Shown here in pieces: positions 4,043-23,104 of a stretch of 64,000 bases of DNA (positions are counted from its first letter, which is position 1; each line of letters begins with the position of its first letter). Source of the stretch: Mycolicibacterium goodii (lineage in GTDB: Bacteria > Actinomycetota > Actinomycetes > Mycobacteriales > Mycobacteriaceae). The position numbers and the translations under genes were made by a program. A model generated the notes under the pieces. That model did no database searches. It saw only the letters and a list, made by a program, of their open reading frames with translations, and was not told the DNA's origin. Location: NCBI RefSeq assembly GCF_001187505.1, contig NZ_CP012150.1, forward strand, positions 6,420,048 through 6,484,047, read 5' to 3'.

Positions 4043-4630
4043 ATGATCGACGGCATGCGCGCACACCACGAAAATCACGTCGGGGTCGCGCGCAACGAGA
4101 CCGAGGCCGAGCGGCTGGACCGTAACTGGAACAACCTGCTGCAGGAACTGCGTGTGGTGCAGACCGGTGTGCAGCTACTGACGGGCCTGCTGCTGACCCT
4201 GCCGTTCCAGGAGAAGTTCGAGGTTCTCGACGCCACGATGCGCACGGTGTACCTCATCACCGTCGGCTGCTCGGCCGGATCCACCGCACTGCTCGTGGCG
4301 CCGGTTGCCATGCACCGCATGGTGTTTCGTCGGCACCGGATGAACCTCGTTGTGACCGCGGCGCACCGCTGCGCCTATGCCGGACTGCTGCTGCTCGGGT
4401 TCGCGATGGCGGGGGTGGTGCTGATCATCTTCGACACCGTCGCCAGCCGCCGCGCCGGCTTCATCGCGGGCGCGGTGGCGCTGATTGTGTTCGTGGGTTT
4501 CTGGATCGTCTGGCCGTTCGCGATGCGGTCCGGCACGCCCATGTCGGGTGCGTCCCGCAGGTCGACCGGCAGCTCGACCGGCAGCTCAACCGGCAGCTCA
4601 ACCGGCACTGTCGCGCAGCGCCGCGAGTAG
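4043..4630 (+). CDS. DUF6328-type integral membrane protein
   Basis: A 195-aa protein. After a soluble, charged N-terminus (NETEAERLDRNWNNLLQELRVVQTG) it carries four predicted membrane helices with an RRHRMN loop between the second and third. This layout matches the actinobacterial DUF6328 family, whose function is unknown. The C-terminus ends in three copies of SSTG encoded by a tandem 12-mer. Starts at 4043 (ATG) and 4055 (ATG) are both possible. The 3' end overlaps the convergent oxidoreductase gene by 33 nt. Confidence 0.65.
   Translation: MIDGMRAHHENHVGVARNETEAERLDRNWNNLLQELRVVQTGVQLLTGLLLTLPFQEKFEVLDATMRTVYLITVGCSAGSTALLVAPVAMHRMVFRRHRMNLVVTAAHRCAYAGLLLLGFAMAGVVLIIFDTVASRRAGFIAGAVALIVFVGFWIVWPFAMRSGTPMSGASRRSTGSSTGSSTGSSTGTVAQRRE
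4563..4610 (+). repeat. tandem 12-bp repeat, four copies
   Basis: Four adjacent 12-mers of the form CRACCGGCAGCT (last copy degenerate) lie in frame at the 3' end of the DUF6328 gene. They encode Ser-Thr-Gly-Ser steps. The array extends into the 3' end of the convergent gene on the other strand. Copy number could vary by slippage. Confidence 0.85.
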
Positions 4631-8783: not shown

Positions 8784-9800
8784 ATGCGGTTGCGTCGAAG
8801 CGTGGTCGACGGGCCCGGGATCAGACGGATCCGCAGGGGCCGCGGCTTCAGCTATCAGAAGTCGAACGGGCAGAAGGTAACTGACCGGGCCGCGTTGCAA
8901 CGCATCGAGGACCTGGTCATCCCGCCGGCCTGGAAGGCGGTGTGGATCTGCCCCTACCCCAGCGGCCACATCCAGGCGGTCGGCACCGACGTCGCGGGCC
9001 GAAGGCAGTACCTGTACCACCCGCAGTGGCAGCAGGAACGCAGCGAGGAGAAGTTCGACCGGGTACTGGAAATGTCTGCGGCACTTCAGAATTGGCGAGC
9101 AGCCCTGGCCGGCGATCTGCGCAGGCGGGGGCTGCGCCGCGACCGGGTGCTCGCGCTCGGACTGCGACTGCTCGACCTCGGATACTTCCGTGCGGGCGGT
9201 GAGAAGTACGCCGAGGAGAACAATTCGTTCGGCATCGCGACGCTGCAGTGCGAACACGTCAGTGTGGGCACCGACGGCGTGGAGTTCGACTATCCGGCGA
9301 AGAGCGGGGTGCGGCGCACCCTGCGTGTCGAGGACCCCGATGTGGTGCGTGCCGTGCGGGCGCTGCAGCGACAACGCGGGACGGGCGAACGGTTCCTGGC
9401 GTTCAAGGACACGAGCGACTGGGTCGAGGTGCGCGCCGAGGACCTCAATCTGCGGTTCAAGGAGATGGTCGGGGCGGACTACACGGTCAAGGATCTGCGT
9501 ACCTGGCACGGCACCGTGCTCGCCGCAGAGGCGTTCGTCGACGCCGACCCGCCGGTCGACCCGAAGGTGATCAAGCGGGTGGAATCGGCGGTGATGCGCG
9601 AGGTCTCCGACGGACTGGGGAACACTCCGGCGGTTGCGCGCAGCGCCTACGTCGACCCCCGTGTGGTGCAGGCATACCGCAACGGGGTGACGATCGAGTC
9701 CGTGGTGCGGCGCGCGGCGCGAATCAGGTCGGCCGATGAACGCCAGGCGGTCCTGGATCGGGCGACGGCCCGGTTGATCAGGAAGATGGCCCGCGGCTGA
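8784..9800 (+). CDS. DNA topoisomerase IB (poxvirus/eukaryote type)
   Basis: A 338-aa type IB topoisomerase. IPPAWKAVWICPYPSGHIQAVGTDVAGRRQYLYHPQW is the N-terminal DNA-clamp region. RVLALGLRLLDLGYFRAGGEKYAEENNSFG holds the first catalytic Arg, KDLRTWHGT holds the second Arg/His, and ARSAYVDPRVV carries the active-site Tyr near residue 289. It relaxes positive and negative supercoils through a 3'-phosphotyrosine link. M. smegmatis is one of the mycobacteria known to have such an enzyme. ATG 8784 has no clear Shine-Dalgarno. Confidence 0.9.
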   Translation: MRLRRSVVDGPGIRRIRRGRGFSYQKSNGQKVTDRAALQRIEDLVIPPAWKAVWICPYPSGHIQAVGTDVAGRRQYLYHPQWQQERSEEKFDRVLEMSAALQNWRAALAGDLRRRGLRRDRVLALGLRLLDLGYFRAGGEKYAEENNSFGIATLQCEHVSVGTDGVEFDYPAKSGVRRTLRVEDPDVVRAVRALQRQRGTGERFLAFKDTSDWVEVRAEDLNLRFKEMVGADYTVKDLRTWHGTVLAAEAFVDADPPVDPKVIKRVESAVMREVSDGLGNTPAVARSAYVDPRVVQAYRNGVTIESVVRRAARIRSADERQAVLDRATARLIRKMARG

Positions 9801-9803
9801 CGG

Positions 9804-11099
9804 TCAGAAACCCGCAGGCCGTCCGTTGCCCAGATACCTCAGACCGCCTGCGGTCACCACGTCGGGGTCGAGCAGGTTGCGGGTGTCCACCACCACCGCG
9901 CCGGGGGCCTGATCGGCGATCCTCGACCAGCTCAGTTCGCGGAACTCGGGCCACTCGGTGAACACCACGATGCCGTCGGCGTCCTTGGCCGCCAGATACG
10001 GATCGTCCACCGCGGCCACCGCGGCACGACGCAGTGCCTGGTGGTCGATCTTCTGCAGACGCGGGTCGTATCCGTTGATCTGGGCTCCGGTGCCTGCAAG
10101 CTCGCGGCACACCGCCAGTGCGGGCGAGTCACGGATGTCGCACGTCCCGGCCTTGAAGGTCAGGCCGAGCGCCGCGACGCGCGCCATGGCCAATGGTGCG
10201 CTGACGGTGCGCCGCAGTGTGCCGATGATCCGCGCCGCCTGCATGCTGTTGGTGGCGCAAGCCGAGGACACCTCGGGCAGGTCGACGCCGAAACGGCGCC
10301 CGGTGTGCAGGAGCGCCGAGGTGTCCTTGGGCAGACACGACCCGCCCCAGCCCGGGCCCGGCTGCAGGAAGTGCGGTCCGATGCGGACGTCGGCGCCCAT
10401 GCACCGGACGACGTCGGTGATGTCGGCACCGGCGTGCGCGCACAGCCTAGCCAACGAGTTGGCGTACGAAACCTTGAGCGCCAGAAAGGCGTTGCTCGCA
10501 TACTTGGCCAACTCCGCACTCTCGGGACTCATCCGCATCGCGGTTCTCCCGGCCGTCTCACCGTAGACCTGGGACACCAGCTCGGCCGCTGCCTCGTCGT
10601 CGGCTCCGATCAGGATGCGGTCCGGGTTGCGGAAGTCGTAGACAGCGTGGCTCTCACGCAGGAACTCCGGGTTCGACACCGCGTGGATGCCGCGCCCGCG
10701 CAACCGGTTTCCCACTTGGCGGGTGGTACCCACCGGCACGGTCGACTTCATCGCGAGCACCGCTCCATCGGGCAGCACCCCTGCGGCGCCCTCCACCACG
10801 GCGTCGACCGCGCGTAGATCCGCCGACCCGTCGTCGCCGCTCGGGGTGGGCACGCAGACGAACACCACCTGCCGATCCGCGAGCGCGCGGATGTCACTGC
10901 TGACGCGCAGCGTGTGCGCGCTCAAGCCGGCGTGCAACAGCTCCGCCAGCCCGGGTTCGTCGATGGGCGTCATGCCGGAGGACAACTGCCGCACCCGGGC
11001 CTCGTCGATGTCGACGCACACGGTGTCGTGCGCCCGCTCGGCCAGACACACCGCGGTGGTCAACCCCACGTAGCCGGCGCCGATCACGCCCACCCTCAT
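9804..11099 (-). CDS. UDP-glucose/GDP-mannose dehydrogenase family protein
   Basis: A 431-aa sugar-nucleotide dehydrogenase. The NAD-binding motif VGVIGAGYVGLTTAVCLAE is at the N-terminus. The substrate segment is VSNPEFLRESHAVYDFRNPDR, and the catalytic Cys is in GWGGSCLPKDTSAL near residue 258. The C-terminal domain keeps ALGLTFKAGTCDIRDSPAL. It should oxidise a UDP-hexose to a uronic acid. The ATG overlaps the preceding stop by 4 nt. It is the last gene of the nine-gene minus-strand glycan cluster. UDP-glucuronate could feed the UXS-like enzyme at the other end of the cluster (inference). Confidence 0.85.
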   Translation of the reverse strand: MRVGVIGAGYVGLTTAVCLAERAHDTVCVDIDEARVRQLSSGMTPIDEPGLAELLHAGLSAHTLRVSSDIRALADRQVVFVCVPTPSGDDGSADLRAVDAVVEGAAGVLPDGAVLAMKSTVPVGTTRQVGNRLRGRGIHAVSNPEFLRESHAVYDFRNPDRILIGADDEAAAELVSQVYGETAGRTAMRMSPESAELAKYASNAFLALKVSYANSLARLCAHAGADITDVVRCMGADVRIGPHFLQPGPGWGGSCLPKDTSALLHTGRRFGVDLPEVSSACATNSMQAARIIGTLRRTVSAPLAMARVAALGLTFKAGTCDIRDSPALAVCRELAGTGAQINGYDPRLQKIDHQALRRAAVAAVDDPYLAAKDADGIVVFTEWPEFRELSWSRIADQAPGAVVVDTRNLLDPDVVTAGGLRYLGNGRPAGF

Positions 11100-12070
11100 G
11101 CCCGCACCCCCAACAACTCTCGGGCCGCGTCGAGTACCCGGGGCACCGTGATCAGCAACAACCCGCGGTGCGGTTCGTCGCCGTGCGGGTCGCCACGGTT
11201 CCCCGCCCACAACGCCGTGTGGGGTCCGCCCCGCGGACCCCACTTGCTGGGCGGGGTCGGACCGAACAGCAGCACCGATGGTGTGCCCGTCGCCGTCGCG
11301 ACATGACCCACTCCGGTGTCGCCGCAGATCAGCAGCAGGCAGTTGCCGATCAGCGCCACCAGACCGAGGACGTCGAGCTTGCCTGCCAGCAGCGAGGATT
11401 CGGGCAGACCGGCCAGCTGCACCACCGAGCGGGCGAGCTCTGTCTCGCCGGCGTCGCCGGTGACCACCACATGGTGACCAGCGGCCCGCAGGGCGGCCGC
11501 CACCTCGGCGAACCGCTCGACCGGCCACCGGCGCGCGGGAAAGGCCGCGCCGGGGTGGATCACGACGACGCCGGAGAAATCGGGATGACCCGACGGTCTC
11601 GGCAGTGCGAGATCCTCTGCGTCGCAGGCGATGCCGTACCACTGCAGCAGGTGACACCAGCGGTCGACCTCGTGCAGGTCGGCCCGCCACGGCGGGCCGG
11701 GCAACTCCGGATGATCGCGGTGCCGGTGCGTCAGCAGGGCCTTCGGCCGCAGCGCCAGCAGGTCCGCGGTGCTCTGCGGTCCGCTGCCGTGCAGGTTGAC
11801 CGCGAGGTCGGGTGGCCGCTGACCGGCTCGGGCGGCTCGGAGACTGCCCAGTCCGGCGGTGGCCCTGACCTCGGTGACCGCGCCGGAGAGCATGGCGAGA
11901 TCGGCGAACCGCTGCGGGGTCGCCAAGGTGATGGCGGCATCCGGGAAGGCCCGGCGCAACCCGCGTAACGCCGGAATGCCGGTGAGCAGGTCGCCGAGTC
12001 CGAGCGCGCGCAGCACCACGATGTGCTCGACGGGCGAATCCCACTGAGCGCCAGGGCCTCTCACGGCCAT
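11096..12070 (-). CDS. GT9 (heptosyltransferase-like) glycosyltransferase, copy 1
   Basis: A 324-aa protein of the ADP-heptose:LPS heptosyltransferase family (GT9, GT-B fold). HIVVLRALGLGDLLTGIPALRGL is the family's N-terminal signature. The nucleotide-binding half has VVIHPGAAFPARRWPVERF and LLICGDTGVGHVATATGTPSVLLFGPTPPSKWGP. The donor is likely an ADP-heptose made by the neighbouring GmhA/HldE enzymes. ATG 12070 overlaps the SDR stop by 10 nt. No membrane anchor is seen, so it is probably cytoplasmic or peripheral. Mycobacteria lack LPS, so the acceptor is unknown. Confidence 0.85.
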   Translation of the reverse strand: MAVRGPGAQWDSPVEHIVVLRALGLGDLLTGIPALRGLRRAFPDAAITLATPQRFADLAMLSGAVTEVRATAGLGSLRAARAGQRPPDLAVNLHGSGPQSTADLLALRPKALLTHRHRDHPELPGPPWRADLHEVDRWCHLLQWYGIACDAEDLALPRPSGHPDFSGVVVIHPGAAFPARRWPVERFAEVAAALRAAGHHVVVTGDAGETELARSVVQLAGLPESSLLAGKLDVLGLVALIGNCLLLICGDTGVGHVATATGTPSVLLFGPTPPSKWGPRGGPHTALWAGNRGDPHGDEPHRGLLLITVPRVLDAARELLGVRA

Positions 12071-12756
12071 GATGATTCGGTGGACGCGCAGACCACCAGT
12101 TCGCGGATCTCACACCCGGCCGGCTGGCACAGCGCGAACACCACCGTCTCGGCCACGTTCGCCGGATCGTTGAGTTTGGCGTCGGGCGGCGGTTTGTACT
12201 GCTCGTCGCGCCCGTCGAAGAACGCCGTGTGCATGCCGCCGGGAATCAACGTGGTCACACCGACCTCGCCCGCGAGTTCGGCGGCCAGTGCGCGGCTGAA
12301 GCCCACGACACCGAACTTCGAGGCGCAGTAGGCGGTCGCGTCGCTCACGGCCTTGATGCCCAGTGTCGATGCGCACGTGACGATGCGTCCCTTGCTCTTC
12401 TTCAGGTAGGGCAGCGCGGCGCGCACCACCGCCACGGTGCCGAGCAGGTTCACGTGGATCACCCGTTCCCAGTCCTTGACCGCGAGATCGGCGAGCTTGC
12501 CGCAGGCATCGGTGCCGCCCGCGGTGAACACACCGTCGACCACACCACCGACCTGTTCGGCAAGTGCGGTCACGGCGGTCTCGACGGCCTCGGTGTCGGC
12601 CAGGTCGACGCACCGGTACGGCACATCGGCCGTCGGGGTGTTGCGGTCGAGGACCAGTGGCGTCCCACCCCGGCGGACCACCGCGTCCACGGTGGCCGCG
12701 CCGAGGCCGGACGCACCGCCCGTGATGATCACGTTGCCGACGTCTCTCGTGCTCAT
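12061..12756 (-). CDS. short-chain dehydrogenase/reductase in the glycan cluster
   Basis: A 231-aa classical SDR. The cofactor motif TGGASGLG is near residue 13, the catalytic Ser is in TCASTLG, and YCASK provides Tyr and Lys. At 231 residues it is too short to be an HldD-type extended-SDR epimerase. GGAGG lies 7 nt before ATG 12756. It lies between hldE and a GT9 gene and overlaps the latter, so it probably modifies a sugar or aglycone of this pathway. A general alcohol dehydrogenase role is the alternative. Confidence 0.8.
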   Translation of the reverse strand: MSTRDVGNVIITGGASGLGAATVDAVVRRGGTPLVLDRNTPTADVPYRCVDLADTEAVETAVTALAEQVGGVVDGVFTAGGTDACGKLADLAVKDWERVIHVNLLGTVAVVRAALPYLKKSKGRIVTCASTLGIKAVSDATAYCASKFGVVGFSRALAAELAGEVGVTTLIPGGMHTAFFDGRDEQYKPPPDAKLNDPANVAETVVFALCQPAGCEIRELVVCASTESSWP

Positions 12757-12772
12757 GTGATTTCCCTCCGGT

Positions 12773-14137
12773 TCACGACCGCATCGCGGCGATCAGGTTC
12801 GACGTTGAATAGCCGGCCACGGTCGGCAGCAGGACCACTTCCCCACCGTGGCGGCGCACCACGGCCGCCTCCGGCAGATCCGCCTCGGTGTAGTCGCCGC
12901 CCTTGACCCACACATCCGGGCGCAGACGCTCGAGTTGCCGTTCGGGTGAGGACTCGTCGAAGATCACCACGGCATCGACACAGGCCAGGGCCGCGAGGAC
13001 CCGCGCACGGTCGACGTCCGCCATCACCGGGCGGTCCTGACCTTTCAGTTCCCGCACCGACGAGTCCGAATTGATCAGCACCACAAGCGCATCCCCGAGT
13101 TGACGGGCCTGGTGCAGCAGGCGCACGTGACCGGTGTGCAGCAGGTCGAAACAGCCACCCGTGGCCACCAGGCGGCCGCCTCTGCCGCGCAACCGGTCAC
13201 GCACCTCGACGATGTCGCCGATGATCGCGGTCGTCTCACCCGCGGCTCGCCGGTATCCGCCCGTCTCGGCCGGGCTCGACACCCCGACGGCGCCACCTGC
13301 GGCCACGAACCGGCTCGCGGCCTCGACGGCCGCGGTCACCGCGGGCAAAACGGCGTGGCCTTCGGCCAGGGCAAGCGTGGCGGCCACGGCGAACCGGTCA
13401 CCGGCACCGCAGGTGTCGCACCGACCCGATCCCGCCGACGCGGTCGGCACCGCCACCTGTACGGTGCCGTCGTGCTCCGTGGCGACCAGCGCCCCGCGCG
13501 GGCCCATGGTCACGCACACCGCCTGCGCCTGCCACTGCCTGCGCAGCAGCTCGGCTGAGCGGCCCTGCGCCTCGGCCTCATTGGGCGTCACCAGTCGGCA
13601 GCCCGGCACCGGCGGCGCCCCGCGCGGATGTGGGTCCCACACCACCGGCACCCGCATCGTCAACTCACCCAGCACCTGACGGATGCCGCCGTGGGCCGCG
13701 ACGCCGCGGCCGTAGTCGGCCACGCAGATCGCCCGCGCCCGCTGCAGCACGCCGGTCACCGCCGCGGGGAGGTCGCCGTCGGCCGCGGTGCCGTCGCCGT
13801 GGTCGAGGCGCAGCATCGACTGGCCCAGCGCACGGATCCTGGTCTTGCACACGGTGCTTCCGTGTAACGGCAACGGGACCACCGTGACACCTGCGCGCGC
13901 GAGCAGGTCGACCAGGCGTCGGCCGTCCTCGTCGTCGGCCAGTGCGGTGACCAGGACGACGTCGGGTTCGCCGCGGGCGGCGAGCACGGCCGCCAGGCCC
14001 GCACCGCCGGGGCGCTGCCACACCCGCTGCGCGTCGACCACGGGTACCGGAGCCTCGGGGCTGAGCCGGGTGGCGGTGCCTTCGACGTCGACGTCGAGCA
14101 TGCAATCCCCGACGATCACCAGCGGATCACCGTTCAT
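12773..14137 (-). CDS. hldE: bifunctional heptose-7-phosphate kinase / heptose-1-phosphate nucleotidyltransferase
   Basis: A 454-aa two-domain protein. Residues about 1-300 form a PfkB/ribokinase fold (GDCMLDVDVEG at the start, RPGGAGLAAVLAARG, and the catalytic DTCGAGDRFAVAATL near 250). Residues about 320-454 form a cytidylyltransferase-like domain with ATGGCFDLLHTGHVRLL (HxGH motif) and DRPVMADVDRARVL. This is the HldE/RfaE arrangement that makes ADP-D-glycero-beta-D-manno-heptose. ATG 14137 overlaps gmhA by 11 nt; upstream in-frame codons lie inside gmhA. With gmhA and the GmhB-like fusion it supplies a complete nucleotide-heptose route. Confidence 0.88.
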   Translation of the reverse strand: MNGDPLVIVGDCMLDVDVEGTATRLSPEAPVPVVDAQRVWQRPGGAGLAAVLAARGEPDVVLVTALADDEDGRRLVDLLARAGVTVVPLPLHGSTVCKTRIRALGQSMLRLDHGDGTAADGDLPAAVTGVLQRARAICVADYGRGVAAHGGIRQVLGELTMRVPVVWDPHPRGAPPVPGCRLVTPNEAEAQGRSAELLRRQWQAQAVCVTMGPRGALVATEHDGTVQVAVPTASAGSGRCDTCGAGDRFAVAATLALAEGHAVLPAVTAAVEAASRFVAAGGAVGVSSPAETGGYRRAAGETTAIIGDIVEVRDRLRGRGGRLVATGGCFDLLHTGHVRLLHQARQLGDALVVLINSDSSVRELKGQDRPVMADVDRARVLAALACVDAVVIFDESSPERQLERLRPDVWVKGGDYTEADLPEAAVVRRHGGEVVLLPTVAGYSTSNLIAAMRS

Positions 14138-14780
14138 CACGCGCCCCCAACACTCCGCCTGCCTCGGGCAGCAGCACGCCGTCCAGCGCGATGCACAGCG
14201 CGTGCACCAGCAGCAGGTGGATCTCCTGGACGGTCGCGGTACTGGGCGCCTCCACACAGATCGCGTCGTCACACATCGCCGCCAACGGATTGGGCGCCGG
14301 TCCCGTCATGGCCCACGTCGTGAGCCCTTCTTCGTGGGCGGCCTTGACCGCTGCCAGCACGTTGGGACTGGTGCCGCTGGTGGACAGTGCCATCAGCACG
14401 TCACCGGGACGGCCGTGCGCGTGCACGCCCCGAGCGAAGATCTCCTCGGCCCCGTAGTCGTTGCAGATCGCCGTCAGCGCCGAGGTGTCGGCGTGTAACG
14501 CGATGGCCGACAACGGTATCCGCTCGTCGCGGAACCGGCCGACGAGTTCGGCGGTGAGGTGCTGCGCTTCGGCGGCGCTGCCGCCGTTGCCGCAGGCCAG
14601 CAGCCGGCCCCCGCCGGTCAGGATATCCGCCAGCCGGCTGCCCCACCGGGTCAGCCGGAACGTCTCGCCGTCGATGCGGGCCACCGCGTGCGCGAGTGCC
14701 GCGAGGTGGTCACCGATCGGGTTCAGCTGGGGCGCCGCGGCTGTCGACGAGTTCGTCGGCACGTTCACCGGAATGTTCAT
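14127..14780 (-). CDS. gmhA: sedoheptulose-7-phosphate isomerase (SIS domain)
   Basis: A 217-aa phosphoheptose isomerase. The SIS-domain signatures are ACGNGGSAAEAQHLTAELVGRF and MALSTSGTSPNVLAA, with the family His in TVQEIHLLLVHALC. It converts sedoheptulose 7-phosphate to D-glycero-D-manno-heptose 7-phosphate, the substrate of HldE. GGGAGG lies 9 nt before ATG 14780. The start lies 71 nt inside the preceding glycosyltransferase gene, an unusually long overlap that indicates tight coupling. Confidence 0.9.
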   Translation of the reverse strand: MNIPVNVPTNSSTAAAPQLNPIGDHLAALAHAVARIDGETFRLTRWGSRLADILTGGGRLLACGNGGSAAEAQHLTAELVGRFRDERIPLSAIALHADTSALTAICNDYGAEEIFARGVHAHGRPGDVLMALSTSGTSPNVLAAVKAAHEEGLTTWAMTGPAPNPLAAMCDDAICVEAPSTATVQEIHLLLVHALCIALDGVLLPEAGGVLGARDER

Positions 14781-15798
14781 CGGATCTACCTCCCAATCGT
14801 TCGACCGCGTCCACCAGTTCGGTGTCGGTGATGCCGTCCAGGCACGGATGTCCCGGCACCGGGCACTTCCTGGCGCGGGTGTCGCGGCATGGCGCGTTCT
14901 GGTCGCCGAGCCGGATGACGTTGTGCGTGTATGGACTCCACTGCGACGCCGGCACCACCGGCGCGAACAACGAGACCACCGGAGCGGCGACCGCGGCGGC
15001 CAGGTGCGCCGGGCCGGTGTTGGGCACCACGACCACCTCGGCGTGCGCGAAGACGGTTCCCAACGTCGCCAGTGTCGTGGCGCCGCCGAGGTCGAGCGCG
15101 ACGTCACCGGCGACCGCTGCGGTCAGGTGCCGTTCGTGTTCGTCGCCGGTGACCACCACACGGTGGCCCGCCGCGACGAGGGCGCGCACCATCGCGGCGC
15201 TGCGCGCGGGGCTCGGCATTCGGGCCGAGACCGCGGCGCCGGGGTGGAACACCACGAACGGATCGGGTCCGATCCGGGCCGCGAGCTCACCGGGCAGCTC
15301 CGGTGCCGTGCGCACCCGCAGCGACCCGTCGTCACCGTCGGGCAGCTCGAACCCCGCGGCCCGCGCCAGCGACAACGCGCGTTGTGGTTCCGGCACACCG
15401 GGTTCGACGGTATGACGGAGATTCAGCAGCGTCCCCGGATAATCCACGCTGATGGCGCCCACCCACGGCACTCCTGCCATCCGGCACACCAGGGCCAGCG
15501 GCAGCGGCGACTGGTGAAACGACGTGAAGATCAGCACGCGGTCGGGCACCAGGTCGCGCAACTGCTTGACCAACGCCTCGACGTGGTCGGCGGTGAGTTC
15601 GGGCGAGTCGAAATCCACCCAGGGCGCCTGCCACTCCAGGACATCGTCGACGCCGGGCAGCATCTCGGCCGCGGCACGGCCCCGCGGGCCTGCCAGGAAC
15701 GTCACCGAATCATGGGCCGCCGCAACGGCGCGCACGGCAGGGCCGGTGATCAGCACATCACCTGCGCTGTCGAGTCGGGCCACCACCGCGCGGGTCAT
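14710..15798 (-). CDS. GT9 (heptosyltransferase-like) glycosyltransferase, copy 2
   Basis: A 362-aa GT9 protein. RAVVARLDSAGDVLITGPAVRAVA is the family N-terminus, FVVFHPGAAVSARMP the phosphate-binding region, and VVVPNTGPAHLAAAVAAPVVSLFAPVVPASQWSPY the nucleotide/sugar site. A Cys-rich tail (CRDTRARKCPVPGHPCLDGIT) follows, as in many heptosyltransferase-like proteins. ATG 15798 overlaps the upstream stop by 4 nt. It is a diverged partner of the GT9 gene at 11096-12070, so the product may carry two heptoses or a heptose and another sugar. Confidence 0.85.
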   Translation of the reverse strand: MTRAVVARLDSAGDVLITGPAVRAVAAAHDSVTFLAGPRGRAAAEMLPGVDDVLEWQAPWVDFDSPELTADHVEALVKQLRDLVPDRVLIFTSFHQSPLPLALVCRMAGVPWVGAISVDYPGTLLNLRHTVEPGVPEPQRALSLARAAGFELPDGDDGSLRVRTAPELPGELAARIGPDPFVVFHPGAAVSARMPSPARSAAMVRALVAAGHRVVVTGDEHERHLTAAVAGDVALDLGGATTLATLGTVFAHAEVVVVPNTGPAHLAAAVAAPVVSLFAPVVPASQWSPYTHNVIRLGDQNAPCRDTRARKCPVPGHPCLDGITDTELVDAVERLGGRSDEHSGERADELVDSRGAPAEPDR

Positions 15799-17306
15799 CG
15801 TGCCTCCCTGAGCACCATCGAAACGGCTTCGGTCAACGTCGAAGCCACCCGTGCCCGCTCACGCGCGTGGGAAACCTCTTCAGGCATGGTCTTTCCGGTC
15901 GGCACCAACACCGCGCGGGCCTGGGCGGACAGCGCGGCCTGCACGTCGCCGCCGGTGTCCCCGATCAGCACGCACCGGTCGGGTTGCACACCGAGCGCCT
16001 CGGCGGCGGCGAGAACCATGCCCGGTCGGGGTTTGCGGCAGTCGCAGCCGTCGCCGGTGTCGTGCACGCAGATCTGCCAGGAGTCGAACGGTCCGAGCAG
16101 TTCGTCGACGCGGGCATTGACCTGGGTCAGCTGTTCGGTGTCGATCAGTCCCTTGGCCACGCCGGACTGGTTGGTCACCACCGCGAGCAGGATCCCGCGG
16201 GACCGCAGGCGGTCGAGTGCCTCGTCGGCGCCGGTGACCGGGCGGACACCTCGCGGATCGTTGAGATACGGCACGTCCTCGATGATCGTGTCGTCCCGGT
16301 CGAGCAGCACCGCCAGTGGTGGATCACGGTGTGCGGCAAGGAAATCCCACTCCCCGCGCAGCCGGTGGTACACCGCGACCGGAGGGATCAGGATGCTGGT
16401 GGTCAGCATCCGCGCGGCTTCGCCCACCGTGCGCCGCCCGGACAGGAGCCGGCGCAGCGCGAATTCGGCGGTCAGCGCACACCACGCGATGCGACCCCAC
16501 CGCGCGAGCCTGCCGCCCGGTGCGGCGAGGCCGACTGCTGCCGCGACCGTGGTGGCCAGGTGTGCGGGCAGGCGGCCCCGCCCCTCGCCGATCGCCGGAC
16601 GCCAGCCCTTGCCGTACTTGCGGTGCAGCAGCGCGTCATCGCGGTTGCCGACCTGCGCACGTACGCTGCTCATCCACGTCGCGCGCGCCACGGGGTGCGT
16701 AGAACGACGCCCACCGCCCACGATCTTCCTGCCGGACAACGTGATCCGCAGCCCGAGATCGGAATCCTCGCGATAGGCGCGCGGAAAACGCTCGTCGAAC
16801 CCCCCGACCTCGACCAGCGCCGACCGGCGGTAGGCCATGTCGGCGGTGATCCACTGCGCGGTCTGAAGCCTCTGGGTCCGCCGCTCGTCGTCGCAGACAC
16901 GATGCCCGGGCGGTATCGGAACGCCGATGATCGCCTGTGATCCGGCGGCTCCGGCAGCATCGGCCGCCGCGAGATCCGCGGCCAGGGCCGCGGCCCATCC
17001 GGGGTCGGGACGCACGTCGTCGTCGAGGAAGCAGATCCAGCGCGCGGTACTGCGGCGCCACCCGGCGTTGCGTGCCGCGGCGGGTCCGCGGCCACCGCTG
17101 GAGACCACGGTGACCGCCAGGTTCGACGTGATCGACAGCGGCGGATCGGGTTTCGCGCGATCGTCGACGACGATCACCGCCCGCGACTCGACACCCGCGG
17201 TGCGCGCCAGCTCCTTCTCCAACGCCGCCAGCAGGACCTGCAGGGTCGGCCGCCCGATCGTGGGGATGACGACGGCGAAGTCCGGAGTCGCGGCAGCCCG
17301 GCTCAA
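15795..17306 (-). CDS. GT2 glycosyltransferase fused to GmhB-like HAD phosphatase
   Basis: A 503-aa fusion. Residues about 10-250 are a GT2 domain (VVIPTIGRPTLQVLLAAL, CFLDDDVRPDPGW with the DxD metal motif, FDERFPRAYREDSDLGLR). Residues about 328-503 are a HAD phosphatase: LLDRDDTI, VVTNQSGVAKG, CDCRKPRPGM, LIGDTGGDVQAA, like D,D-heptose 1,7-bisphosphate phosphatase GmhB with its Cys-rich loop. The start is taken as TTG 17306: it overlaps the upstream TGA by 4 nt and has GGAGG 5 nt before it. The phosphatase would act between HldE's kinase and transferase steps. Confidence 0.8.
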   Translation of the reverse strand: MSRAAATPDFAVVIPTIGRPTLQVLLAALEKELARTAGVESRAVIVVDDRAKPDPPLSITSNLAVTVVSSGGRGPAAARNAGWRRSTARWICFLDDDVRPDPGWAAALAADLAAADAAGAAGSQAIIGVPIPPGHRVCDDERRTQRLQTAQWITADMAYRRSALVEVGGFDERFPRAYREDSDLGLRITLSGRKIVGGGRRSTHPVARATWMSSVRAQVGNRDDALLHRKYGKGWRPAIGEGRGRLPAHLATTVAAAVGLAAPGGRLARWGRIAWCALTAEFALRRLLSGRRTVGEAARMLTTSILIPPVAVYHRLRGEWDFLAAHRDPPLAVLLDRDDTIIEDVPYLNDPRGVRPVTGADEALDRLRSRGILLAVVTNQSGVAKGLIDTEQLTQVNARVDELLGPFDSWQICVHDTGDGCDCRKPRPGMVLAAAEALGVQPDRCVLIGDTGGDVQAALSAQARAVLVPTGKTMPEEVSHARERARVASTLTEAVSMVLREAR

Positions 17307-18916
17307 CGGGGCCTCCGCACCAGCAACGGTCCGATCGCCAACACGTCGATCGGTGCGCTGCCGAAGCACTCCAGGGCATCCCGCGGGCTGTCGACCATCG
17401 GCCTGCCCGCGGTGTTGCAGCTGGTGTTGACGATCACCGGCACACCGGTGCGTTCGGCGAATCGGCTGATCGTGGCGTGCAGCAACGCGTCGGAGCGGTC
17501 GACGGTCTGGATGCGCGCGGTGTTGTCGACGTGGGTGACCGCGGGGATCCGCGCCCGCCAGTGCGGCGCCACGTCGTGCACGAACAGCATGTACGGGCTG
17601 GGAAGCGGTCCGCCCGAGAATATCTCAGCGGCGGACTCGGCGAGCACCATGGGGGCGACGGGACGGAACTGTTCACGCCCCTTCACCGCGTTGAGCCGGT
17701 CGAGGTTGCGGGCGCGGCGCGGATCGGCGAGCAGCGACCGTCGGCCCAGCGCTCTGGGCCCGAATTCGGAGCGGCCCTGGAACCACCCGATGATCAGGTC
17801 GTCGGCGAGCGCGTCGCCGACAGCGGCGGCGAGATCACCGGGGCGTTCGAACGGCACCGCGGCCTCGGTGAGTGCCGCCTCGATCTCGTCGTCGGAGAAG
17901 CCGCGGCCCAGCGCAGCCGTCGGCATCGGGGCGATGGGTTCGCCCGCCTCGGCCGCCAGCGACAGCGCCGCGCCGAGCGCCGTGCCCGAGTCCCCCGCCG
18001 CGGGTTGCACCCACACGTCGCGGAAGCCTCCGCTGTTGTAGAGCTTGGAGTTCGCGACGCAGTTGAGGGCGACTCCCCCGGCCAGACAGAGGTTTTCGTG
18101 GTCGGTGCGGGTGCGCAGCCACCGCACGAGCTCGAGCAGGACCTCCTCGACGACGCGCTGCACGCTGCACGCCAGGTCGACCCGGTCATCCCACCCGGTC
18201 CCGAACTGCTCCCAGTCCACCGGTTCGGTGCGGAAACCGCCGTCGCCGGTGGCGTAGACGAGTTCACGGAACTGGTCGGCGAAGCGCGGCTTGCCGTAGG
18301 AGGCCATCGCCATGACCTTGTACTCGTCGCTGGACCGCTGGAACCCCAGATGCTGGGTCAGGTCCTCGTACAGCAGGCCGAGCGAATGCGGCAGTTCCTG
18401 TGCGGCGTGGATGTCGAGTTTGTTGTCGGTGTAGGCCCCGGCGAGCATGGATGTCCGCTCACCGCGCCCGTCGACCACCAGCACCGCGCAGTCGGGATGG
18501 GGCGAGGCCAGCGCGCTGGACGCGGCGTGCGCGACGTGGTGGCGGACGTAGCGCACCACGTCGGGATCCAGGCCGGGCAACGCCGATCGCAAGAAGCGCG
18601 GGGCCCGTTCGGCGTAGAGCGTGCGCAGGTATTCCCAGTCGCGGTCCAGGCCTGCCAGATCGGTGTCCTGCCCCTGCATCAGCCTGGGATCGTAGGAGTA
18701 CCCGACCGCGTCGAGGTCCGACGGCGAGAGTCCGGCCTGCTGCAGGCACCACCGCGCCGATTGCACGGGCAACTCCCACGTGGAGAACGCGACCGCCTCC
18801 TTGCCGTGCTTGCGTCTGCTGAACCGTTCCTCCTCGGCCGCGGCGACGATCTGTCCGTCGACCACCAGCGCGGCGGCCGGGTCGTGGAACACCGCATTGA
18901 TTCCCAGAATCCGCAC
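17303..18916 (-). CDS. carbamoyltransferase (NodU/CmcH family)
   Basis: A 537-aa protein. The N-terminal kinase-like domain begins LGINAVFHDPAAALVVDG with EEERFSRRKHGK soon after, and has CLAGGVALNCVANSKL. The C-terminal YrdC-like domain includes FQGRSEFGPRALGRRSLLADPR and PVIVNTSCNTAGRPMVDSPRDALECF. Such enzymes transfer a carbamoyl group from carbamoyl phosphate, via ATP, onto a hydroxyl of a sugar or antibiotic. The start is GTG 18916 with AGGAG 6 nt upstream. Its place among glycosyltransferases suggests that the sugar product is carbamoylated. Confidence 0.9.
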   Translation of the reverse strand: MRILGINAVFHDPAAALVVDGQIVAAAEEERFSRRKHGKEAVAFSTWELPVQSARWCLQQAGLSPSDLDAVGYSYDPRLMQGQDTDLAGLDRDWEYLRTLYAERAPRFLRSALPGLDPDVVRYVRHHVAHAASSALASPHPDCAVLVVDGRGERTSMLAGAYTDNKLDIHAAQELPHSLGLLYEDLTQHLGFQRSSDEYKVMAMASYGKPRFADQFRELVYATGDGGFRTEPVDWEQFGTGWDDRVDLACSVQRVVEEVLLELVRWLRTRTDHENLCLAGGVALNCVANSKLYNSGGFRDVWVQPAAGDSGTALGAALSLAAEAGEPIAPMPTAALGRGFSDDEIEAALTEAAVPFERPGDLAAAVGDALADDLIIGWFQGRSEFGPRALGRRSLLADPRRARNLDRLNAVKGREQFRPVAPMVLAESAAEIFSGGPLPSPYMLFVHDVAPHWRARIPAVTHVDNTARIQTVDRSDALLHATISRFAERTGVPVIVNTSCNTAGRPMVDSPRDALECFGSAPIDVLAIGPLLVRRPR

Positions 18917-18925
18917 GTGCTTCTC

Positions 18926-19870
18926 CTAACGTTGCTGGGCGGCGAACCATTTGATGGTCCTGGCGAGCCCCTCACGGCAACCCACCTTCGGCTGCCACCC
19001 CAGTTGCTCTCGGGCCGCGGTGATGTCGGGGCACCGCCGCTGCGGATCGTCCTCGCCGAGGGGCAGGAACTCGATGGACGATGCGCTTCCGGTCAGCTCC
19101 CGGATCAGCTCGGCGATCTCCAGCACGGTCAGCTCTTGGGGGTTGCCGATGTTGAGCGGTCCGGTGCAATCGGATTCGGCCAGCCCGACCAGCGCGTCGA
19201 CGGTGTCGTCGACATAGCACAGCGACCGGGTCTGCCGTCCGGTGCCGTGCACCGTGATCGGCTGCCCCGCGAGGGCCTGCCTGCAGAACGTCGGCACGAT
19301 ACGTCCGTCGTCGCCGCGCATCCGCGGGCCGAAGGTGTTGAACAGGCGCGCGACGCCGATGTCGGCGCCCCTGGCCCGGCGGTAGGCGAAGGTCAGCGCT
19401 TCGGCGAACCGTTTCGCCTCGTCGTAGACGCTGCGCAACCCGACGGGATTGACGTTACCCCAATATGTTTCGCGTTGCGGATGTTCCAGCGGATCACCGT
19501 AGACCTCGCTGGTGGAGGTCAGGATGAGCCGTGCATTGCACCGTTCGGCGAAATCCAGCGCGTTGGCGGTGCCCACGGATCCGGTGCGCAACGTCTGCAC
19601 CGGCATGCGCTGGTAGTCCACCGGTGAGGCAGGCGAGGCCAGGTGGAAAACGGTGTCCACGGCGGGCATGCCGGTCAGCGGCGCGCTGATGTCGTGTTGG
19701 ACGAAGGTGAACCCGTCGCGGCCGTTCAGCAGGTCGACGGTGCTCGGTGCGCTGGTCGACAGGTCGTCGACACAGATCACCTCGCGGCCGTCGTCGAGCA
19801 GTCGTTCACACAGGTGGCCGCCGAGGAAGCCTCCTCCTCCGGTGACCAGGACACGTTTGCACTCATGCAC
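18926..19870 (-). CDS. NAD-dependent epimerase/dehydratase, UDP-glucuronate decarboxylase-like
   Basis: A 314-aa extended SDR. VLVTGGGGFLGGHLCERLLDDG binds NAD, ICVDDLSTSAPSTVDLL follows, the catalytic triad shows in LTSTSEVYGDP and SVYDEAKRFAEAL (YxxxK), and ARLFNTFGPRM plus RSLCYVDDTVDAL are typical of UXS/dTDP-glucose 4,6-dehydratase relatives. UDP-xylose synthase is the best guess, with UDP-glucuronate from the dehydrogenase at 9804-11099 as substrate. The start is GTG 19870. It is the first gene of the cluster. No SigF-type promoter was seen on its strand. Confidence 0.8.
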   Translation of the reverse strand: MHECKRVLVTGGGGFLGGHLCERLLDDGREVICVDDLSTSAPSTVDLLNGRDGFTFVQHDISAPLTGMPAVDTVFHLASPASPVDYQRMPVQTLRTGSVGTANALDFAERCNARLILTSTSEVYGDPLEHPQRETYWGNVNPVGLRSVYDEAKRFAEALTFAYRRARGADIGVARLFNTFGPRMRGDDGRIVPTFCRQALAGQPITVHGTGRQTRSLCYVDDTVDALVGLAESDCTGPLNIGNPQELTVLEIAELIRELTGSASSIEFLPLGEDDPQRRCPDITAAREQLGWQPKVGCREGLARTIKWFAAQQR

Positions 19871-19874
19871 GATG

Positions 19875-19899
19875 GTTTACCGATCCTCGTCGTGGGTAG
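19875..19899 (+). promoter_or_regulatory. SigF-type promoter for the GT2 gene at 19911
   Basis: GTTT (19875-19878), 15 nt, GGGTAG (19894-19899), then 11 nt to ATG 19911. It lies in the 40-nt gap between the divergent epimerase and GT2 genes. Confidence 0.7.
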
Positions 19900-19910
19900 C
19901 TCGCCGGGAT

Positions 19911-20807
19911 ATGGATGAGAGCACGCTGCGGCGCAGGTTGTCGTTCGTGATCGCCAGCCGCAACCGCGCGCCGGAGCTGGTCTCGGTGGTGCGGCGCCTG
20001 CTGGACACGACGCCGTGCCCGATCGTCGTGGTGGACAACGGATCCGACGACGACTCGGTGGCGGCCGTCGGCCGGGCAGCGGTCGGCGCCGAAGACCGGG
20101 TCACGGTGCTCGGCCTCGCGCGCAATCTCGGTGCGGTTGCGCGCAACGTCGGCGTCGCGGCGAGCGGCACCCCATACGTCGCCTTCTGTGACGACGATTC
20201 GTGGTGGGATTCGCAGGCCCCCGCGCGCGGTGCGGAGATCTTCGACCGCTATCCCAGCACCGCCGTACTCGCAGGCCGCACCGAGATCTGGCCGCAGCGG
20301 CGCGAGGATCCCCTCGTCGAGCAGTTGGCCAACAGTGCGCTGGGATGCAGCAACGACCTTCCCGGTCCCTCGATCCTGGGTTTCTTGGCCTGTTCGGCGA
20401 TGGTGCGCAAGTCGGCGTTCGAGGCCGCGGGCGGGTTCAGCGGAATCCTGCACTTCCGCGGCGAAGAACGGCTTCTGGCACTGGACCTGGCCGCCCTGGG
20501 CTGGGATCTGTGCTACTGCGCGGAATTGACCGCCATCCATCAACCGTCGGTGCAGCGGCCGACCACCGCGGCGCAGGACGCCCGCAGCCTGCGCAACGAC
20601 GTGCTCACCACCTGGCTGCGCCGGCCGGTTCGGCACTGCGTGCGGGCGACCGGGGCGCTGCTCGGGGCGGCCGTGCACGACACCGAGCACACCCGCGCGG
20701 CGGTCGAGGCCGTGCTCCGACTTCCCGCGGTGATCGCCCACCGCAGGCGCCTGCCTTCGACCGTCGAAAGCGCGCTCGCGGTGCTGGAGCGGGACGGTCG
20801 GCGCTGA
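19911..20807 (+). CDS. GT2 family glycosyltransferase
   Basis: A 298-aa GT-A glycosyltransferase. FVIASRNRAPELVSVVRRLL, VVVDNGSDDDSVAAV, ARNLGAVARNVGVAAS and VAFCDDDSWWD (DxD-type metal site) are in the usual order within the first 100 residues. HFRGEERLLALDLAALGWDLCYCAEL follows as the acceptor-side motif. No membrane helix is evident. ATG 19911 stands 11 nt after a SigF-type -10. It is divergent from the heptose cluster and convergent with the GT4 gene, so it may decorate the same glycan under stress (inference). Confidence 0.82.
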   Translation: MDESTLRRRLSFVIASRNRAPELVSVVRRLLDTTPCPIVVVDNGSDDDSVAAVGRAAVGAEDRVTVLGLARNLGAVARNVGVAASGTPYVAFCDDDSWWDSQAPARGAEIFDRYPSTAVLAGRTEIWPQRREDPLVEQLANSALGCSNDLPGPSILGFLACSAMVRKSAFEAAGGFSGILHFRGEERLLALDLAALGWDLCYCAELTAIHQPSVQRPTTAAQDARSLRNDVLTTWLRRPVRHCVRATGALLGAAVHDTEHTRAAVEAVLRLPAVIAHRRRLPSTVESALAVLERDGRR

Positions 20808-20812
20808 CGCAG

Positions 20813-22036
20813 TCATCCCAGCGACGCGCTCGGCGTGTCGGGCTGCTGGTACCCGGAAGGTCCGAGGCGGTCGTAGACCCGCAGGGTGTCCGCGGCGATG
20901 CGGTCCCATGTGTAGCGTGATCTGGCCCGGTCCCGCCCGGCCGCACCGAGGCTCTGGCGCAGGAACTCGTCGCGCAGCAGATCGTTGACGGCCTCGGCCA
21001 CCCGGTCCGGCCGTTTCGGGGTCACCAGCCGGCCGGTCACGTCGTGCACCACGGTGTCGAGCATGCCGCCGACCGCGGACGCCACCACCGGGACACCGCA
21101 CGCCATCGCCTCCAGCGGCACGATCCCGAACGGTTCGTACCACGGTGTGCACGCGACGACATCCGCCGACCGCAGCAGGGCCGGCATGTCCGAACGCGCA
21201 ACCGCACCGTAGAGCTTCACGCGGTGCTCGACCCCGAGGCGGCGGGCCAGTTCCCGCAGCCTGCACGCCTCCGGATCGCTGTCCAACCCGGCCCGATCCG
21301 GTCCGCCGACGATGACCAGCTCGGTGTCGGGGATGGTCGGCAACGCGCGGATGACGATGTCGAAACCCTTTCTGGGCACGAATCTTCCGACGCTGACGAT
21401 GCGATGCAGGCCAGTGCGTGCGGCCTTCGGGCCGTCCGGGCGGAACAGGTTCACGTCGACCCCGCACGGGACCACCGAGGTCTGCGACCGTGACCGACCA
21501 AGGCGCATCAACTCGAAGACCTCGTCGGTGCATGTGGCGGCCACCCAGGTGGCGCATCGCGCCACCATCGCTTCCAGTTTCAACCGGTCGGGCGGGCTGG
21601 TGTCCCTGGCACCCTGGTGCCGCCGCTTCACCACGCCCAGGGCGTGGAAGGTCTGCACCGCGGGCAGATTGAGGTGGCGGGCCGCGAGTTGGGTGGCGAC
21701 GCCGGACATCCAGAAGTGGGCATGCACGACGTCCGGCCGGTCCTTGGCCCAGGTCCGGTCCAGATATCGCGCGAAATCGCCCATGTACTGGAGCAATTCG
21801 TCCTTGGGTATCGGCTCGGCCGGACCGGCCGGAACGTGGTGGACGCGGTATCCGTCGGGTGTGTCGATGCGTTCGAGTAGGTCGGGGTCGTCGCGCCGGG
21901 TGTAGACCGCCACCTCGTGACCACGCCGGCTCAGCGCGGCCGACAGCTCGGCGACGTGTACGTTCTGCCCTCCGGCGTCAACCCCGCCGAGCGCGGCCAG
22001 CGGACTGGCGTGCTCGGAAACCATCGCGATTTTCAT
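20813..22036 (-). CDS. GT4 family glycosyltransferase
   Basis: A 407-aa GT-B protein. SEHASPLAALGGVDAGGQNVHVAELSAAL is the N-terminal donor loop seen in MshA and sucrose-phosphate-synthase-like GT4 enzymes. The C-terminal half has VSVGRFVPRKGFDIVIRAL and CTPWYEPFGIVPLEAMACGVPVVAS with the EX7E motif. The donor is probably a UDP- or GDP-sugar. It is the second gene of a minus-strand pair, 15 nt after the GT gene at 22052-23035, and so shares that gene's SigF-type promoter. Confidence 0.85.
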   Translation of the reverse strand: MKIAMVSEHASPLAALGGVDAGGQNVHVAELSAALSRRGHEVAVYTRRDDPDLLERIDTPDGYRVHHVPAGPAEPIPKDELLQYMGDFARYLDRTWAKDRPDVVHAHFWMSGVATQLAARHLNLPAVQTFHALGVVKRRHQGARDTSPPDRLKLEAMVARCATWVAATCTDEVFELMRLGRSRSQTSVVPCGVDVNLFRPDGPKAARTGLHRIVSVGRFVPRKGFDIVIRALPTIPDTELVIVGGPDRAGLDSDPEACRLRELARRLGVEHRVKLYGAVARSDMPALLRSADVVACTPWYEPFGIVPLEAMACGVPVVASAVGGMLDTVVHDVTGRLVTPKRPDRVAEAVNDLLRDEFLRQSLGAAGRDRARSRYTWDRIAADTLRVYDRLGPSGYQQPDTPSASLG

Positions 22037-22051
22037 TCACCACTCCTCCGG

Positions 22052-23035
22052 TCACCGGCAGTATTCGGCGATCAACCGGTCCCATTCGCGCAGGAACCGG
22101 TCGAGACCGAAATGGGCCAATGCGTGTTCGCGGGCCGCCTTGCCCGCGACCATCGCCGCGGACGGGTCGGCCACATACATCCCGAGCGCGGATGCCAGTT
22201 GCCCGACATCCGCACCCACCACACCTGCATCTGCGGGTATGGCCATCGGCGCCGCGGTCGAGGCCACCGCGACTATCGGCATGCCGACAAACATCGCCTC
22301 GATCAGGGACAGGCCAAGGGAGGTCCACCGCGCGGTGTGCAGGTAGACCCGCCGCCGCGCGACCTCGTGCAGGACGTGGGGATGCCCGACATCGCCGCGC
22401 CCGGTCACCGCGCCGAGTCTCCCGTCGCGGTTCAGATCGTCGGTGCCGATGCCCCAGACATCGATGGGAACGTGTGTGCTCAGATCGGTGAGCAGATCGG
22501 TGCCCACCGTTCGCCAGCGTCGCAGCGGTTCGTTGATCATCGTCGCCGCGGCACCGACCACGCCGCTGAACTGGTTGCCCGGATCGGCGATTCCGTGGGC
22601 GATGACCAGCGTCGGCGCGACGCCGTTGTCCCACATCAACCGGTTGTAGTCGGTCACGTGCACGATGGGGATGTCACGGCGCTCGGCGAGCGGGTGCACA
22701 CTGCCGGTCGGATACGGTCGCGGTGCGTTGTGTTCGACATACACCGCGGGTATGTCGACGCCGGGGCGGCGCCCGAGAAAACGTGCCGCCAGTTCCAACT
22801 CTGCGGGCCGCTGCAGCACGACGAGGTCGATGTCTTCGTCCCGCAACCGATCCAGCGGGATTTCCTGTGCGGCAGGCCATTTCCGTCCGCACAGACCGCG
22901 CCCGTCAGCGTCGCCGTTCCCGTCGGCCGGGATGCCGACCGGAATCAGGTAGCGATGCCGGCCGGCGACGAACGATTCCATCCAGGAACCGTGCACGTGC
23001 CACGCCAAGATCGACCGGATCCGGTCTGCAGTCAT
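22052..23035 (-). CDS. glycosyltransferase (GT-B, GT4-like)
   Basis: A 327-aa protein. The N-terminal part contains AWHVHGSWMESFVAGRHRYLIP, and DIDLVVLQRPAELELAARFLG is typical of glycosyltransferases acting on surface glycans. The C-terminal part has RVYLHTARWTSLGLSLIEAMFVGMPIVAVASTAAP with an EX7-type motif. ATG 23035 is chosen because the SigF-type -10 ends 10 nt upstream; longer readings begin before the promoter. It is first in a two-gene operon with the GT4 gene. The sugar and acceptor are unknown. Confidence 0.8.
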   Translation of the reverse strand: MTADRIRSILAWHVHGSWMESFVAGRHRYLIPVGIPADGNGDADGRGLCGRKWPAAQEIPLDRLRDEDIDLVVLQRPAELELAARFLGRRPGVDIPAVYVEHNAPRPYPTGSVHPLAERRDIPIVHVTDYNRLMWDNGVAPTLVIAHGIADPGNQFSGVVGAAATMINEPLRRWRTVGTDLLTDLSTHVPIDVWGIGTDDLNRDGRLGAVTGRGDVGHPHVLHEVARRRVYLHTARWTSLGLSLIEAMFVGMPIVAVASTAAPMAIPADAGVVGADVGQLASALGMYVADPSAAMVAGKAAREHALAHFGLDRFLREWDRLIAEYCR

Positions 23036-23045
23036 GCGACCCGGC

Positions 23046-23070
23046 GTACCCGGGCACTCCTCTCTTAAAC
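23046..23070 (-). promoter_or_regulatory. SigF-type promoter for the 23035-20813 operon
   Basis: Minus strand GTTT (23070-23067), 15 nt, GGGTAC (23051-23046), then 10 nt to ATG 23035. It is back to back with the promoter at 23080-23104. Confidence 0.78.
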
Positions 23071-23079
23071 ACGCGAAGA

Positions 23080-23104
23080 GTTTGATCGAGAACCACTCGG
23101 GTAT
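23080..23104 (+). promoter_or_regulatory. SigF-type promoter for the 23115-26639 operon
   Basis: GTTT (23080-23083), 15 nt, GGGTAT (23099-23104), then 10 nt to ATG 23115. The two divergent -35 elements are only 9 nt apart, so both polymerases cannot bind together. Confidence 0.8.

Follow-up and report, generated by a model that had tools for sequence, protein, structure and literature searches.

In the window analysed here, a stretch of 64,000 nt (6,420,048-6,484,047) from the 7.1-Mb single-contig genome of Mycolicibacterium goodii, we studied a cluster of predicted carbohydrate genes that would make and assemble the sugars of a heptose-containing glycan. From the list of open reading frames (ORFs) and profile scans with Pfam and NCBIfam, nine tightly packed minus-strand genes were recognised between positions 9804 and 19870. 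They code, in the order of their coordinates, for a UDP-glucose 6-dehydrogenase-like nucleotide-sugar dehydrogenase (UGDH, 9804..11099, likely ATG at 11099; TIGR03026 403 bits, above cut-off), a GT9 glycosyltransferase of the heptosyltransferase family (GT9b, 11096..12070; PF01075 99 bits), a short-chain dehydrogenase/reductase (SDR, 12061..12756; PF00106), a putative D-beta-D-heptose 7-phosphate kinase / 1-phosphate adenylyltransferase (HldE, 12773..14137), a putative sedoheptulose 7-phosphate isomerase (GmhA, 14127..14783), a second GT9, putatively a heptosyltransferase (GT9a, 14710..15798; PF01075 65 bits), a GT2 fused to a GmhB-like HAD phosphatase (GT2-HAD, 15795..17369; PF00535 and HAD families), an O-carbamoyltransferase of the NodU/TobZ/GdmN type (17303..18916; PF02543 and PF16861) and a predicted UDP-glucuronate decarboxylase / UDP-xylose synthase (UXS, 18926..19870). 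The junctions, computed from the ORF coordinates and the chosen start codons, consist of overlaps of 4 (the ATG of UGDH overlapping the end of GT9b as ATGA), 10, 11, 74, 4 and 67 nt and of two gaps, of 16 and 9 nt. The original prediction, made from the sequence alone, had described nine genes with these names on one strand, mostly overlapping by 4-71 nt, and was essentially right; its GmhB-like phosphatase does exist, as the C-terminal part of the GT2 protein rather than as a separate gene.

The limits first given to the cluster, 9804..19870, hold for these nine genes and are too narrow, since three further glycosyltransferase genes travel with the block in most of the 61 loci compared within the genus: a plus-strand GT2 (19911..20807; PF00535 62.6 bits) in 57/61, a minus-strand MshA-like GT4 (GT4a, 20813..22036; PF00534 142 bits, TIGR03449 247 bits and thus below the cut-off of 462.5) in 59/61, and a minus-strand GT4-like gene (GT4b, 22052..23035), whose Pfam glycosyltransferase matches are weak and just under cut-off, in 58/61. 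The cluster is thus one of 12 genes extending to about 9804-23035, with six glycosyltransferase domains: two GT9, two GT4-type and two GT2. Some other gene models were rejected. The minus-strand ORF 19863-21557 (564 aa) has no Pfam match, and the GT2 is read on the opposite strand; if ORF 9804-12113 is read as a fusion, its N-terminal ∼330 residues have no Pfam match, and GT9b lies in the overlapping frame. For GT4b, a longer start at 23194 was dropped: relatives align only from about residue 45-62 (except in locus L018, where they do from residue 5), and a promoter motif described below fits the ATG at 23035.

Taken together, GmhA, HldE and a GmhB-like activity would give ADP-D-glycero-beta-D-manno-heptose. 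The first three enzymes and the GT9 transferases of the ADP-heptose pathway of lipopolysaccharide (LPS) synthesis (GmhA-HldE-GmhB-HldD) are all represented in the window, although mycobacteria are not known to make LPS. HldE, a single match in the whole genome, scores 182.6 bits with TIGR02199, barely above the cut-off of 181.5, and 266 and 118 bits with NF008454 and TIGR02198, both under cut-off; GmhA, with 187 bits (NF010546) and 166 bits (TIGR00441), is under both of its cut-offs. The best PDB matches of the HAD domain are D,D-heptose 1,7-bisphosphate phosphatases. The residues that we take to be catalytic are present in all three and kept in all or nearly all aligned relatives: the GAGD and HxGH motifs of HldE, the Glu and His positions of GmhA in 57/57 mycobacterial rows and in 26/26 and 25/26 other rows, respectively, and the DxD and C-H-C-C residues of the HAD domain in 58/58 mycobacterial and 26/26 other rows. 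An ADP-heptose route, as first proposed, is therefore supported by sequence. One difference from the LPS pathway lies in the last step: a search of the whole genome with the HldD family gave no match above cut-off, the best of 15 matches reaching 81.9 bits versus a cut-off of 274.6. Because HldE is single-copy, no HldD scores above cut-off and the only two GT9 matches of the genome are GT9a and GT9b, the comparison also supports the second part of that proposal, i.e. that the D,D-heptose would be used without 6-epimerisation.

One could object that GmhA, the HldE kinase and the HAD domain all fall under their NCBIfam equivalog cut-offs, and that these enzymes may have shifted to other substrates, hexose phosphates for instance, so that no heptose is made. 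BlmC, the sugar synthase of bleomycin biosynthesis, presumably resembles HldE. It is described as part of a GDP-mannose route (PMC7017467). But genes for GmhA, HldE and GT2-HAD each occur in 58-60 of the 61 loci and retain the motif residues that were checked, TIGR02199 is above its cut-off, and the only GT9 genes of the genome are at this locus, so that we think such a shift quite improbable.

The second donor would be UDP-xylose. UGDH, which has four paralogues elsewhere in the genome, is closest among PDB chains to UDP-glucose dehydrogenases and contains the GGSCLPKD motif, whose cysteine we take to have its usual role in this family. For UXS, human UXS1 (E=1.1e-103) is far ahead of the next best other PDB chain (5.5e-36), and the match spans residues 4-311 of 314. 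The active-site residues of human UXS1 listed in Table 3 of PMC12820599 each align with an identical residue of the window protein, by alignment and manual position count. Nine of them (Tyr84, Thr118, Ser119, Glu120, Arg144, Tyr147, Lys151, Asn176 and Arg277) do not vary in any aligned row, 58 mycobacterial rows from 60 loci and 17 others from 30; Ala79 was excluded from this count of rows, because the motif landed on the neighbouring Pro. The resemblance to human UXS1 is near full-length and extends to the active site, and the enzyme, first labelled a UXS-like epimerase, is most plausibly a UDP-xylose synthase, that is a predicted decarboxylase; the likeness to UXS stands and the word epimerase was dropped. 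Since a UXS-type and a UDP-glucose-dehydrogenase-type enzyme occur in one cluster, conversion of UDP-glucose to UDP-glucuronate and then to UDP-xylose by these two enzymes should be the economical reading.

The remaining two enzymes would modify the product. The carbamoyltransferase shares 93% identity with proteins that carry the labels Mycolicibacterium smegmatis and M. goodii, and its relatives in PDB include a carbamoyltransferase, GdmN and TobZ, some of which are antibiotic enzymes. The SDR, which may oxidise or reduce a sugar, keeps the Tyr and Lys of YxxxK in 58/58 mycobacterial and 17/17 other aligned rows.

The search for this gene set across actinobacteria that had been suggested at the outset was carried out, and it found the set in genomes of the same genus, of the class and of Streptomyces. 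In a first sample, consisting of the organism's own genome and 60 relatives, HldE matches were present in 21/61, and the regions of 16 of the other 20 positive genomes were examined. The block is present in 8 of 37 same-genus genomes, own included; the other seven loci are L016-L022, of which L017 is without a dehydrogenase match. A larger draw gave a carbamoyltransferase match at 1e-100 in 61 of 248 same-genus genomes. That the block is kept in 8/37 and the carbamoyltransferase in 61/248 argues that the association is not due to chance. The 61 congener loci compared throughout are 7 from the first sample, 53 from the larger draw and the window. At least 48 of them have all 12 genes in one order, a lower bound, since the count was made from the 15 commonest orders, which cover 60 loci. 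Individually, the carbamoyltransferase is present in 61 loci, GT2-HAD in 60, GT9a, GT9b, SDR, HldE, UXS and GT4a in 59 each, GmhA and GT4b in 58, GT2 in 57 and UGDH in 55; some of the misses may reflect short contigs or the extent of the stretch examined. In a class-wide draw, HldE was matched at E of 1e-60 or better in 30/148 genomes, and most of the 16 regions examined have the same enzymes in a variable order; some are partial, such as L066, with HldE and GmhA only.

Among the matches listed in open-access literature searches, nothing was found on this locus in mycobacteria. In M. smegmatis, an oxidoreductase and a type I topoisomerase are reported as MSMEG_1782 and MSMEG_1784 (PMC4694148); if these correspond to the SDR and the topoisomerase of the window, this suggests that strain mc2 155 lacks the locus at the same place, yet a 93% identical carbamoyltransferase is labelled M. 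smegmatis. Of nine congeners without an HldE match, four had the topoisomerase; their flanks showed no clean empty site, and two had a GT4 ∼40% identical nearby. Two further observations concern HldE relatives. The same-genus genome G034, which gave an eighth HldE match besides those of L016-L022, has, at 9096-14205 of L030, a distant HldE (34% identical) with a HAD and a GT9 match and the rest of the block absent, possibly a different heptose locus. One actinobacterial locus, L070, contains two HldE-like genes (3930-5336 and 9306-10646) about 4 kb apart, with GT9 matches.

That the cluster is of a new kind was not borne out. The cwg ('cell wall glycan') operon of Streptomyces coelicolor, SCO6179-SCO6190, consists of 12 genes and has a wall glycan as its predicted product; it is a vancomycin-induced target of sigma-E, on which it is partly dependent (PMC6767563). 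Its published promoter lies 147 bp before the first start codon (PMC6767563, Table 1). Searching for this promoter in 295 genomes of the genus taken as Streptomyces, we found it in seven with at most two mismatches, one of these seven being exact, G439 (locus L080), a genome which need not be S. coelicolor A3(2). In G439, the first start codon is located 147 bp downstream, just as published. Each of the 12 genes that follow is matched by a window protein, in the order UXS, carbamoyltransferase, GT2, HAD, GT9, GT4b, GT4a, GmhA, HldE, GT9, GT2 and GT2, the last two both being matched by the single window GT2. Positions 5, 8 and 9 of this order agree with the published names: cwgE is a putative heptosyltransferase (PMC5882110), cwgH a phosphoheptose isomerase and cwgI a bifunctional synthase/transferase (PMC5839063). 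UXS would thus be cwgA-like, GT2-HAD would combine cwgC and cwgD in one protein, GT9a, GmhA and HldE would be cwgE-, cwgH- and cwgI-like, the window GT2 cwgK/L-like, and, by position, the carbamoyltransferase, GT4b, GT4a and GT9b cwgB-, cwgF-, cwgG- and cwgJ-like, respectively. Six of the seven promoter loci were examined (L080 and L065 among them), G346 being left out. The same gene set was found in four of the five others, with some genes aligning in pieces in L081, and two genes matching the window GT2 occur in 5/6.

Because an exact published promoter at the published distance precedes 12 genes matched by window proteins, the window cluster can be identified, on this sequence comparison, as the cwg locus of actinobacteria in a mycobacterial version, with homology to the S. 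coelicolor operon. The order UXS-CarbT-GT2-HAD-GT9 (CarbT for the carbamoyltransferase) and the pair GmhA-HldE are kept. In the mycobacterial form, GT2 and HAD are fused, the two GT4 genes are placed upstream, the GT2 is on the other strand, SDR and UGDH are added, and SigF-type motifs stand in place of the cwg promoter; no match to SDR was seen in the Streptomyces cwg loci examined. A single co-directional operon in the Streptomyces order is found neither in the window nor among the commonest congener orders, and the order varies in other actinobacteria too. With up to three mismatches, the 29-base cwg promoter has no match in the window, where the general sigma-E consensus was not scanned.

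This homology also bears on a suggestion made at the start, that the product could be a glycosylated secondary metabolite; the genes would then be a sugar module of the kind known from bleomycin. The names given to the products of blmC-G, namely sugar synthase, carbamoyltransferase, sugar transferase, hydroxylase and sugar epimerase (PMC7017467), are similar, and the antibiotic enzymes related to the carbamoyltransferase point the same way. So does a Streptomyces fungicidicus plasmid (L218, 11308-21461) with a shorter, partial block (epimerase, carbamoyltransferase, two glycosyltransferases, a SIS protein and rfaE2) beside a P450 and an MFS transporter. Against this, no polyketide synthase or nonribosomal peptide synthetase was found among the 38 distinct window ORFs scanned with Pfam (not every ORF was scanned), the KR model matching SDR proteins only; at least 48 of the 61 congener loci share a single arrangement of the full set of 12; and the Streptomyces set stands behind a promoter of cell-envelope stress. 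In open-access literature on bleomycin, ADP-heptose does not appear among the matches listed. The window therefore lends this alternative no support, and we consider it hardly likely.

The promoters of the mycobacterial form appear to be different. The consensus of SigF is GTTT-N14-19-GGGTA (PMC4694148), with an alternative motif GGWWT-N16-17-GGGTAY (PMC7693655). The window contains 12 exact GTTT-N15-17-GGGTA sites, where 0.11 would be expected. Two of them, both GTTT-N15-GGGTA, face cluster genes: one at 19875..19898 (+), 12 nt before the ATG of GT2, and the other at 23047..23070 (-), ending 11 nt before the GT4b ATG at 23035 and thus preceding GT4b-GT4a. A high density is expected here, because the genes of this neighbourhood (P450, methylase, oxidoreductase, type I topoisomerase) resemble by name the SigF-regulon region MSMEG_1766-1804 of M. 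smegmatis. But within 150 nt upstream of a gene, a SigF-type motif was found for GT2 in 56/57 loci, for GT4b in 52/58 and for UXS in 23/59, versus 4/61 for the carbamoyltransferase, 0 of 55-60 for the remaining cluster genes and 1/36 for the topoisomerase. The next ATG or GTG follows after 11-13 nt at 49 of the 56 sites before GT2, and after 10-11 nt at every one of the 52 before GT4b. As controls, the reversed motif gave 0 for GT2 (n=57) and GT4b (n=58), and four permuted motifs gave 0/57 each for GT2 and 1, 0, 0 and 0 of 58 for GT4b. Since the topoisomerase is within 3 kb of the cluster in only 31 of the 61 loci, the motifs do not simply reflect that neighbourhood. SigF-type promoter motifs thus precede GT2 and GT4b in most of these mycobacterial loci, and SigF would presumably act on them. 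The M. smegmatis SigF regulon has the promoter consensus and the neighbouring gene names in common with the window; in its Table 1 (PMC4694148), no cluster gene is recognisable by name, and the GT2 entry MSMEG_1097 is neither matched to nor excluded from the window GT2. One more SigF-type site, at 23080-23103 (+) near the GT4b promoter, faces an SDR gene at 23346 and an Nramp-like gene at 24711.

The following pathway can be proposed. Starting from sedoheptulose 7-phosphate, the successive action of GmhA, the kinase of HldE, the GmhB-like domain and the adenylyltransferase of HldE would yield ADP-D-glycero-beta-D-manno-heptose, to be used without 6-epimerisation, while UGDH would oxidise UDP-glucose and UXS would decarboxylate the product to UDP-xylose. 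Heptose would be added by the two GT9 enzymes, and xylose and other sugars by the GT4-type and GT2 domains, of which there are two each; one sugar would receive an O-carbamoyl group from the carbamoyltransferase, and the SDR would alter one sugar or donor. The oligosaccharide would be assembled in the cytoplasm and, to judge from the Streptomyces context, end in the envelope. Transcription of at least GT4b-GT4a and of the divergent GT2 would, in mycobacteria, start from SigF-type promoters and not from the promoter known from cwg in Streptomyces. That the cluster is a mycobacterial cwg form behind such promoters, making a glycan of D,D-heptose, xylose and O-carbamoyl, seems to us reasonably probable.

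Several points weigh against this proposal. The functions of the enzymes are predictions, and three activities of the heptose route score under their equivalog cut-offs, as mentioned above. One Streptomyces locus (L082, 2077-5058), a reduced one, retains the cwg promoter but no more of the gene set behind it than matches to a GT2 and a GT4. The product of cwgD is called a 'putative dehydratase' in PMC5839063, whereas the fourth gene of the Streptomyces set matches the HAD phosphatase. The cwg genes of Streptomyces include no UGDH, and UDP-glucuronate must therefore come from elsewhere there, if UXS works as supposed. Nor can SigF control be extended to the whole pathway, because the loci share ancestry, so that 56/57 does not stand for 57 independent events, and because the UXS-to-UGDH operon of the window, with most of the cluster genes, is without a strict SigF-type site. 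Finally, the cluster genes include no initiating phospho-sugar transferase, flippase, polymerase or ligase, which makes the 'cell wall' destination an analogy.

With no transport or lipid-carrier gene in the cluster, the same sugar chemistry might instead yield a soluble cytoplasmic oligosaccharide or glycoside, a protectant made under stress. SigF-type motifs are also found at trehalose synthase and glycine-betaine transport genes (PMC4694148, Table 1), cwgA is activated by salt in S. coelicolor (PMC13011467), and a Frankia gene named ADP-heptose heptosyltransferase, not shown to lie within such a cluster, rises with salt (PMC5563000). However, the induction of cwg by vancomycin, partly through sigma-E, and its predicted wall glycan (PMC6767563) speak for the envelope, and we hold a soluble product to be unlikely.

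Related modules occur on plasmids and in other bacteria. Burkholderia multivorans plasmid NZ_CP143553.1 (L220) carries, in the order SDR, HAD-IIIA, GT9, carbamoyltransferase (48% identical), glycosyltransferase, GT9 and GT4, what may be a related glycan module in a proteobacterium. In contrast to the window, no GmhA, HldE or UXS is annotated in the stretch examined, and the block adjoins sigma-54 regulators; the lack of annotated GmhA and HldE would still fit a heptose donor, because a bacterium with LPS could take ADP-heptose from the route it already has. A Streptomyces plasmid (L219) has a 12-gene block in the annotated cwg order, with STAS, ANTAR, PP2C phosphatase and CsbD genes nearby. 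In Streptomyces sp. DH41, two carbamoyltransferase loci (L088 and L121), 97% and 83% identical to the query, may correspond to duplicated cwg-like clusters.

What was already known, then, is the kind of locus, from S. coelicolor; the mycobacterial version allows a more specific prediction of the chemistry and seems to have moved to promoters of the SigF type. What looks new is the cwg form in mycobacteria, its carbamoyltransferase present in 61/248 congeners and all 12 genes in one order in at least 48 of these loci, with SigF-type motifs rather than the Streptomyces promoter before GT2 and GT4b. The reading in terms of ADP-D,D-heptose, UDP-xylose and carbamoyl gives concrete signals to seek, and a mycobacterial locus opens tests in fast-growing organisms. 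We would suggest, tentatively and at slightly less than even confidence, that about a quarter of mycobacterial species make an undescribed, SigF-induced D,D-heptose-xylose-O-carbamoyl oligosaccharide, in the envelope or soluble, of the same kind as the product of the Streptomyces cwg operon under sigma-E. A single stress glycan, widespread in actinobacteria, would then have come under different stress sigma factors in different lineages, and the presence of the same locus behind SigF-type promoters in mycobacteria would tie this hidden glycan to the general stress response.

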